DNA from: Thalassobacillus devorans MSP14
GTDB taxonomy: Bacteria > Bacillota > Bacilli > Bacillales > Halobacillaceae
DNA length: 42,683 nt
Direction of reading: 5' to 3'
Assembly (NCBI RefSeq): GCF_000496835.1
Contig: NZ_KI543236.1
Span: 1 to 42,683, forward strand
The position numbers and the translations under genes were made by a program. Under the pieces are notes generated by a model, which ran no database searches, was not told the origin of the DNA, and saw only the letters and a program-made list of their open reading frames with translations. Each line of letters begins with the position of its first letter. Within the stretch, counting starts at the first letter, position 1. Shown piece by piece: positions 37-1,418 of this stretch.

Positions 37-190
37 TCCACCGTAGCGAAGCTAACCTCTTCGAGTAATCTACAGAGCAAGCTTTGCGAGAAGTTCAACA
101 GTATTTATTCAGCCAGTAGGTTGAACAATAGTGTTGAACGACGAGCATAAAACTAAGATTGTAGCTCAATGATATATATAATCACATTAT
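37..190 (+). repeat. long-form tRNA-associated repeat unit with tRNA-Asn 5' fragment
   Basis: Positions 27-47 repeat exactly the 21 bases at 181-201, which include the first 11 nt of tRNA-Asn. The offset is 154 nt, nearly the same as the 155 and 156 nt units before tRNA-Gly at 38631-38941. After the tRNA fragment come GCGAAGC, a TCGAGTAATCTAC motif that resembles CCGAATAAGCTAC in the Gly units, and a hairpin GTTCAAC/GTTGAAC (95-101 with 122-128 approximately). No coding potential is apparent. It appears to be a degenerate member of the same family, sitting directly before intact tRNA-Asn. Positions 1-36 hold nothing I recognise; by analogy with other Bacillaceae they may follow an rRNA operon, which is inference. 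Confidence 0.6.
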
Positions 191-610: not shown

Positions 611-687
<77 letters not shown>

Positions 688-759
688 ATTAATTTTCACT
701 TGCAACGTCGATTAAGCATCCTTGCCAGTGAAAGATAGTAGTACTGTAAAGTGCAACCA
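688..759 (+). repeat. short tRNA-associated repeat, Met copy 1
   Basis: 72-nt unit running from just after the CCA of tRNA-fMet to a second GCAACCA. Hairpin 1 is TTTCACT/AGTGAAA around a loop with GTCGATTAAGCATC. Hairpin 2 is GTACT-GTAA-AGTGC with a GNRA-type tetraloop. Tandem with two further copies. No coding content. Confidence 0.85.
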
Positions 760-830
760 ATTAATTTTCACTTGCAACGTCGAATGATCTTCTTAGCTAG
801 TTGAAGATCGTGTGCTGCAAAGTGCAACCA
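760..830 (+). repeat. short tRNA-associated repeat, Met copy 2
   Basis: 71-nt unit ending in GCAACCA. Hairpin 1 is TTTTCA-CT paired with AG-T-TGAAGA (one bulge, one G-T pair). Hairpin 2 is GTGCT-GCAA-AGTGC. The loop core is GTCGAATGATCTTC. More diverged than copies 1 and 3. Confidence 0.83.
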
Positions 831-902
831 AATTATTTTCACTTGCATCGTCGATCAATCATCGTTGCTAGTGAAAGATAGTAGTACTGTAAAGTGCAAC
901 CA
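831..902 (+). repeat. short tRNA-associated repeat, Met copy 3
   Basis: 72-nt unit ending in GCAACCA, six bases before tRNA-Asp. Hairpin 1 TTTCACT/AGTGAAA, loop core GTCGATCAATCATC, hairpin 2 GTACT-GTAA-AGTGC. Confidence 0.85.
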
Positions 903-1111: not shown

Positions 1112-1187
<76 letters not shown>

Positions 1188-1255
1188 TTGTAGGTTTTCC
1201 TGCAACGTCGAATAAACTTCTTGCTGGAAAACAACCGTGTGCTGTAAGTGCACCA
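1188..1255 (+). repeat. short tRNA-associated repeat, Thr copy 1
   Basis: 68-nt unit ending in GCACCA, a copy of the tRNA-Thr end. Hairpin 1 is GTTTTCC/GGAAAAC, so the stem sequence differs from the Met copies while pairing is kept. Loop core GTCGAATAAACTTC. A second small hairpin is formed by GTGC/GCAC. Confidence 0.85.
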
Positions 1256-1326
1256 TTGCATAGTTCCCTTACTGCGTTGAATAATCTTCAAAGCTAGGGA
1301 ACGATAGTAGTACTGCAAAGTGCACC
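1256..1326 (+). repeat. short tRNA-associated repeat, Thr copy 2
   Basis: 71-nt unit ending in GCACCA. Hairpin 1 is GTTCCCT/AGGGAAC, a third sequence version of the same stem. Loop core GTTGAATAATCTTC. Hairpin 2 GTACT-GCAA-AGTGC, as in the Met family. Confidence 0.85.
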
Positions 1327-1395
1327 ATTGAAAGTTTTCCTGCTACGTCGAATAAGCTTCCTGTTGGAAAACGACCGTGTGCTGTAAGTGCACCA
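1327..1395 (+). repeat. short tRNA-associated repeat, Thr copy 3
   Basis: 69-nt unit ending in GCACCA, close to Thr copy 1: hairpin 1 GTTTTCC/GGAAAAC, loop core GTCGAATAAGCTTC. Followed at 1396-1408 by TTGAAAGTTTTC, which looks like the first bases of a fourth, truncated copy. Confidence 0.85.
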
Positions 1396-1418
1396 TTGAA
1401 AGTTTTCTTCATAACAAT

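Follow-up and report, generated by a model that had tools for sequence, protein, structure and literature searches.

Short structured repeats behind tRNA genes of Thalassobacillus devorans end in a copy of the 3′ end of the host tRNA and may be small mobile elements

The window, a stretch of 42,683 nucleotides from Thalassobacillus devorans MSP14 (contig NZ_KI543236.1, positions 1 to 42,683 of the forward strand), opens with an array of 18 tRNA genes called by ARAGORN. Six short repeat units are found within it in two arrays, one of which adjoins the 3′ end of tRNA-Thr(tgt) directly, while the other lies after tRNA-fMet. The features that concern us are the following.

37..190, + strand: 5′ unit, of a separate family, upstream of tRNA-Asn (match of model R2 at 42-151)
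611..687, + strand: host tRNA-fMet, 3′ end CCCGCAACCA (ARAGORN)
688..759, + strand: fMet array unit 1, 72 nt, tail GCAACCA, stem 1 intact (model match)
760..830, + strand: fMet array unit 2, 71 nt, tail GCAACCA, stem 1 unformed in the minimum-energy fold (model match)
831..902, + strand: fMet array unit 3, 72 nt, tail GCAACCA, stem 1 intact (model match)
1112..1187, + strand: host tRNA-Thr(tgt), 3′ end GGCCGGCACCA (ARAGORN and Rfam tRNA)
1188..1255, + strand: Thr array unit 1, 68 nt, tail GCACCA at 1250-1255 (model match, E 4.3e-14)
1194-1200 and 1226-1232, + strand: stem 1 of Thr unit 1, GTTTTCC / GGAAAAC
1239-1242 and 1248-1251, + strand: hairpin 2 of Thr unit 1, GTGC / GTGC
1256..1327, + strand: Thr array unit 2, 72 nt, tail GCACCA at 1322-1327 (model match at 1257-1327, E 1.2e-15)
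1263-1269 and 1296-1302, + strand: stem 1 of Thr unit 2, GTTCCCT / AGGGAAC
1328..1395, + strand: Thr array unit 3, 68 nt, tail GCACCA at 1390-1395 (model match, E 1.3e-13)
1334-1340 and 1366-1372, + strand: stem 1 of Thr unit 3, GTTTTCC / GGAAAAC
1396..1418, + strand: leftover past the last Thr-array tail, TTGAAAGTTTTC..., which repeats the unit start

Two near-identical tRNA-Leu(caa) genes, at 1939-2021 and 2284-2367, are also present in one array, and neither of them encodes CCA.

In each unit, hairpin 1, whose loop (CTACGTCGAATnnnCTTCnTnGCT) is conserved, precedes a linker (nGTAGTn) and a short hairpin 2 that ends in G(T/G)GC and is immediately followed by the tail. A first-pass annotation of this DNA had reported three Thr units of 68, 71 and 69 nt ending in GCACCA; the tails are as reported, and the lengths are in fact 68, 72 and 68 nt. 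It had also matched these tails to tRNA-Thr and not to tRNA-fMet, which is correct; the units behind fMet end in GCAACCA. The three versions of stem 1 that it distributed over the six units do exist, but they hold for only five, because the unit at 760-830 has mismatched arms of two types and folds otherwise. This unit is a chimera that joins a TTTCACT-type left arm to a right arm of a type that is paired in the sister arrays L005 and L007. The leftover at 1396..1418 resembles the Thr-Tyr spacer as it is found, free of units, in two relatives; since these read TCTGAAAGTTTTTCAGCGT at that place, the left arm of stem 1 in the Thr units may derive from the ancestral Thr-Tyr spacer, although a decayed unit would look alike.

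The pairing is well supported beyond the window. RNAalifold analysis of 33 units from the genus revealed two-sided changes in seven of seven stem-1 pairs. In this alignment 98.5% of the cells are paired versus 81.6% after shuffling, and the covariation score is 0.549 versus 0.222, with none of 500 shuffles as high in either measure; two other measures are unremarkable, as the number of pairs with two-sided change was reached by 29 of the 500 shuffles and that of further pair types by 421. A broader alignment, A4, of 63 diverse units was made with MAFFT with no structure supplied, and hairpin 1 was recovered from it by RNAalifold, whereas hairpin 2 was added to the structure by hand before the pairs were scored. 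With both hairpins, 93.2% of the A4 cells pair (66.9% when shuffled). Covariation in this larger alignment amounts to 0.698 as compared to 0.209 in shuffled and 0.09-0.21 in slid versions, a value attained by 0 of 500 shuffles; the number of pairs with two-sided change was reached by 45 of them, and the number of pair types by 35. Covariation is thus strong, and the proposal that the bodies form one family is upheld.

The two hairpins have changed in different ways. When changes in the 63 units were mapped on a FastTree tree of the non-stem columns, hairpin 1 displayed 111 two-sided pair-keeping, 2 one-sided and 32 pair-breaking changes, versus 15, 18 and 12, respectively, in hairpin 2; in slid controls, the 12 pairs together had 8-12 two-sided changes. 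One-sided G-U steps are thus near absent in hairpin 1, unlike hairpin 2. In stem 1, G-U accounts for 6 of 726 standard pairs (in an alignment fitted to the model), as compared to 41 of 1347 in the acceptor stem, a low share that is suggestive only. The joint changes of the arms had been taken as a sign of selection on pairing, with which the strong covariation agrees; nevertheless, the pattern of hairpin 1 fits selection on a DNA hairpin, or the joint renewal of both arms, no less well than it fits selection for pairing in RNA.

The covariance model built from the 33 Thalassobacillus units, R1, was used to establish how far the family extends. The own genome holds 11 matches, all 11 of them behind a tRNA gene (fMet, 5; Thr, 4; Gly(gcc), 1; Gly(tcc), 1). 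At E <= 0.001, matches are present in 27 of 101 relatives, 48 of 299 genomes in a sample of the order and 28 of 299 in a sample of the class; the samples overlap, the own genome is counted in each of the three, and the counts are upper bounds for tRNA-linked units because some matches correspond to another repeat that shares hairpin 1 only. The model is not exhaustive either, as L007:1922-1990, a unit on which it was trained, does not appear in its match list, and the by-eye check of the class counts is partial, since the class search printed no unit at 4 of 19 loci (L208, L210, L211 and L216). Units are found behind tRNA-fMet, Thr, Gly, Leu and Arg, and the hosts that directly adjoin a unit end in GC(A)NCCA, except for Thr genes that lack an encoded CCA. 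A further exception is L213, where two units with tails GCAACTA and GCAGTCA come after tRNA-Asn with N between. In G459 units are located behind Thr(ggt), Thr(cgt), Gly(gcc), Gly(tcc) and Gly(ccc), and in G498 behind fMet and Leu, each with its own tail. Spacers may also be free of units: within the genus, the Gly-Ala spacer is empty in G002 and filled in four genomes, and unit-free fMet-Asp spacers measure 3-6 nt (10 printed loci), similar to the leftover past the final tail in single-unit loci.

The correspondence between tail and host was quantified in the 109 units whose host bears CCA, a full match being 7 nt for fMet and 6 nt for the others. The tail had been claimed to follow the host tRNA. 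This holds in full for 76 of the 109 units (26 of 31 non-terminal and 50 of 78 terminal ones) and is incomplete in the other 33, while other tRNAs of the same locus reach at least 6 nt in 8 of 751 comparisons. In the own genome, fMet tails read GCAACCA in 5 of 5 units, those of the first Thr array GCACCA in 3 of 3, and that behind Gly(gcc) GCTCCA; the Gly(tcc) unit has CACTCCA versus CGCTCCA in its host (5 nt). The C4 Thr gene of this genome lacks an encoded CCA (GGCATCTT), and the tail of the unit located there is GTGCACCA. Behind the CCA-less tRNA-Thr(tgt) genes (GGCATCTTACT) of L006 (1421-1851, in G004) and L002 (1140-1283, in G000) unit tails carry CCA; in L006, tails are partly GCACCA and partly CCA-less (GCATCTTACTATG). 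A tail-agnostic pattern searched over the genome contigs yielded 21 matches in 19 stretches, 16 of which, in 14 stretches, lie behind tRNAs (fMet, Thr, Leu or Gly). In 14 of these 16 the tail equals the host sequence, including two that belong to one CCA-less Thr host and are copied without CCA. None of the remaining five is NCCA-tailed: three are units away from tRNAs (L093, L094 and L103), and two, inside Halomonas genes, look like chance matches.

Copying is not specific to tRNAs, and in this respect the earlier claim has to be corrected, since copies elsewhere mostly repeat their own flank. In G213 units were found at eight of the loci examined, seven of which have no tRNA in the stretch and place the unit antisense just upstream of a gene start, the open frame beginning <= 21 nt from the flank. 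These are genuine genes, as the N-terminus reaches the cut-off of a Pfam family in six of the seven (HisRS, dUTPase, inositol phosphatase, Iso_dh, TIM and MoeA); the seventh, gyrase-B-like, lies under the cut-off. At most of these loci the Shine-Dalgarno region has a C-rich complement that recurs as the tail of the unit. In G498 and G405 units lie in antisense orientation where tRNA-Gly begins, and their tail, ACCCGC, is the complement of the first bases of that tRNA. Unit orientation tracks the C-rich strand rather than transcription. Over 15 places other than tRNA 3′ ends, some of which are partly alike where duplication is seen (similar Shine-Dalgarno or tRNA-Gly ends), the match of tail to own flank sums to 116 nt, a value as high in 0 of 20,000 random pairings; the mean match is 7.7 nt, versus 4.4 nt for other flanks. 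At 9 of the 15 the shared stretch is at least 6 nt, and at the other six (L115, L117, L230, L093, L094 and L103) no clear duplication was found. One of the G213 loci, L111, contains six tandem units, antisense to the gene, between a T-box-like leader with a terminator (both recognized by eye) and the start of histidyl-tRNA synthetase.

The tail equals the 5′ flank both at tRNA places and at most of the non-tRNA places tested. Since antisense copies mostly repeat their own flank, and some Thr tails are CCA-less, the best reading of the tail is that of a duplicated target flank, and mimicry of the tRNA as the reason for it is weakened by the existence of copies away from tRNA 3′ ends. The bodies, on the other hand, are not grouped by host. 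Among Thr and Gly bodies of Thalassobacillus, 25 of 26 are nearer to a unit of another host within the genus than to one of the same host in other genera, which supplied only 6 Thr and 2 Gly units to this comparison; for 8 of the 26, the closest fMet unit of another genus equals (4) or beats (4) the nearest unit of a different host within Thalassobacillus. In addition, 12 of 35 units from Thalassobacillus, with fMet, Thr and Gly among their hosts, share a linker variant without AGT, versus 0 of 72 others. Flank copying, CCA-less tails and the grouping of bodies together indicate a body that travels, or is copied, from one site to another and a tail that belongs to the site.

On these sequence comparisons we favor the view, with a probability of about 0.55, that each unit represents a copy of a mobile repeat, small and structured, that duplicates its target at insertion and then expands in tandem. 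The element would comprise about 60 to 75 bp, including hairpin 1, the linker and hairpin 2, and would insert on the C-rich strand beside a (G)C/NCC site, mostly the 3′ NCCA end of tRNAs with GC at the end of the acceptor strand. The insert would come to be flanked on both sides by the bases of its target (about 4 to 16 nt by eye, NCCA included), so that the tRNA would remain intact and each unit would appear to wear the tail of its host. Arrays would grow afterwards by tandem duplication and by recombination among units. We infer mobility in the past or at present, and the pairing of the hairpins may act at the level of DNA. Regarding the machinery, the Y1 transposase is present in 9 of 14 genomes examined and absent from two carriers of the element, G213 and G004, and no unit lies within the 14 Y1 loci examined. 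A mobiliser of the RAYT/IS200 type was rejected on these grounds, and the Y1 search in the 14 genomes revealed no mobilising enzyme.

The strongest competitor, rather unlikely in our estimation, postulates that the units are functional RNAs of tRNA operons, in which hairpin 2 and NCCA would mimic an acceptor end, and processing enzymes or CCA-binding factors would release, trim or bind them; shared handling of tRNA and unit by one machinery would require the tail to match the host. The conservation and strong covariation of both hairpins are in line with this proposal, and so is the G-C pair at the foot of hairpin 2, which with the (A)NCCA that follows is reminiscent of an acceptor stem. Mini-units that consist only of linker, hairpin 2 and tail exist behind tRNA-fMet in L159 (G011), L042 and L080, units are found inside rRNA-tRNA operons that are probably highly transcribed, and persistence at tRNA-fMet is wide. 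An RNA role is, however, difficult to reconcile with the own-flank tails of nine of the 15 non-tRNA places and with the antisense orientation towards the neighboring gene or tRNA in G213 and G498, where a conserved U.G would read A.C. It accounts poorly as well for Thr tails that lack CCA (GCATCT, GCATCC) and for the less complete tails of terminal units, a difference confounded by one clade that ends in GCAACCT.

Less probable still is that each locus has simply duplicated a tRNA 3′ end and its spacer in place, with no mobility involved, as in the tyrT repeats of E. coli. Arrays are indeed tandem, trailing partial units are common and units recombine with each other, as exemplified by the chimera at 760-830 and by an A-B-A-B-A alternation in L006. 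Nevertheless, a single body family spans several bacterial families and is associated with several tRNA families as well as with antisense Shine-Dalgarno sites, and bodies do not cluster by host; the shared body thus counts against independent local duplications. That the units are decayed tRNA genes, as their near-tRNA length, NCCA end and T-loop-like TCGAAT in the loop (by eye) might suggest, is scarcely credible and was rejected, since the conserved fold has two hairpins and no cloverleaf and neither ARAGORN nor the Rfam tRNA model calls anything inside any window unit.

Comparison with known systems places the units close to several families. Rfam 15 gives no family over the window units at gathering score; in a laxer scan, mir-249 at 756-884 (18.2 bits, cut-off 70) and ceN41 at 831-899 on the other strand (17.2, cut-off 50) were taken as chance. 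Scans of ten relatives and six dispersed or non-tRNA loci likewise gave no row over a unit at the family cut-off, and no RtT row appeared in the scans of the window and relatives. The E. coli tyrT repeats, the source of rtT RNA (Rfam RtT), are tandem repeats behind a tRNA gene that carry a copy of its 3′ end; they are about 178 bp long, include 19 nt of the tRNA and occur at one tRNA-Tyr locus. The units described here are likewise tandem and each copies a tRNA 3′ end, but the tyrT repeats are longer and are not known from other loci, whereas here one body is found at many tRNAs and at non-tRNA sites. The 3′ETS-leuZ RNA also originates in a tRNA operon spacer; unlike the units, it is not known to copy a tRNA end or to form a repeat family. 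A literature search of titles and abstracts found no description of such repeats, which is no proof of novelty as most subscription journals were outside its reach.

GTAG and CGTC REPs are also short DNA repeats with hairpins, and both motifs occur in the unit; according to PMC3733652, the unpaired tails of CGTC-tagged REPs mostly fit CCA, and these REPs have no dedicated transposase. The units differ from them in being found in Bacilli at tRNA genes, with two hairpins, head-to-tail arrays and a flank-dependent tail. The REP tag is unpaired at the foot of the palindrome; in A4, CGTC lies inside the hairpin-1 loop, and the last G of the GTAG that precedes hairpin 2 is paired (G-C in 58 of 63 units). 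Moreover, GTAG REPs go with a Y1 (RAYT) transposase, whereas G213 and G004 carry the element without Y1. The bcr repeats of Bacillus cereus, in which a repeated TTTAT motif is tied to mobility, and MITEs are, according to PMC6542083 and PMC3446304, which deal with bcr1-bcr3, small non-coding structured repeats of Bacillales with features of mobile elements. As in MITEs, copies are dispersed (eight loci in G213, seven of them tRNA-free). In comparison with bcr repeats and MITEs as so portrayed, bcr1 by description only, the units are mostly located at tRNA 3′ ends and, as judged by the alignment, lack terminal inverted repeats, since the arms of hairpin 1 are set back by about 7 nt from the 5′ end and by about 25-30 nt from the 3′ end. 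We have accordingly filed the units as a variant within small structured mobile repeats, outside any named family.

The 5′ end of tRNA genes is occupied by a different family. The unit at 37..190 starts with an 11-nt copy of the 5′ end of tRNA-Asn, and a 10-nt leader is repeated as well. Members of this family lie upstream of tRNA-Asn, Thr, Lys, fMet and Phe (window 37-190; L002, L005, L006, L008-L011, L014, L017 and L175-L198), start with 11-26 nt of the next tRNA, repeat the leader and have a body of their own. A helix AAGCC/GGCTT becomes AAACC/GGTTT in the fMet units, both sides having changed. Model R2 matches 32 of 101 relatives, and the copy of the tRNA head is exact at 18 of 24 loci inspected. 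Structured repeats with a copy of the gene's edge are therefore present at both ends of tRNA genes.

Large elements that bear an integrase classically insert at tRNA genes. Here, a gene-free repeat of 70 bp exploits the last bases of the tRNA and leaves the gene whole. If mobile, it would constitute a very compact system in which insertion duplicates the target; if an RNA, it would be a structured product of tRNA operons unmatched at Rfam cut-offs. Either way, the tRNA operon spacers of many Bacilli hold two structured repeat families that copy the adjacent tRNA edge, and the units may represent a widespread element family so far undescribed. As a tentative extension that we hold to be doubtful as a whole, they could constitute a new minimal class of mobile element in Bacilli, which would home to tRNA 3′ NCCA ends and C-rich Shine-Dalgarno complements, duplicate its target without gene breakage, renew both hairpin-1 arms with each move and rely on machinery unlike known transposases, with the partner family acting likewise at tRNA 5′ ends.

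The loop of hairpin 1 is also held by a larger dispersed repeat, located near gene ends and often before terminator-like sequence (L049-L060, L120 and L127-L129, in G056, G095, G302, G266, G328 and G042); matches with hairpin 1 only occur in G043 as well. In 12 of 20 printed rows, TTATACTT flanks the hairpin on both sides. Plasmid-borne relatives of one of these repeats, L128, are represented by one record, from Arthrobacter citreus.
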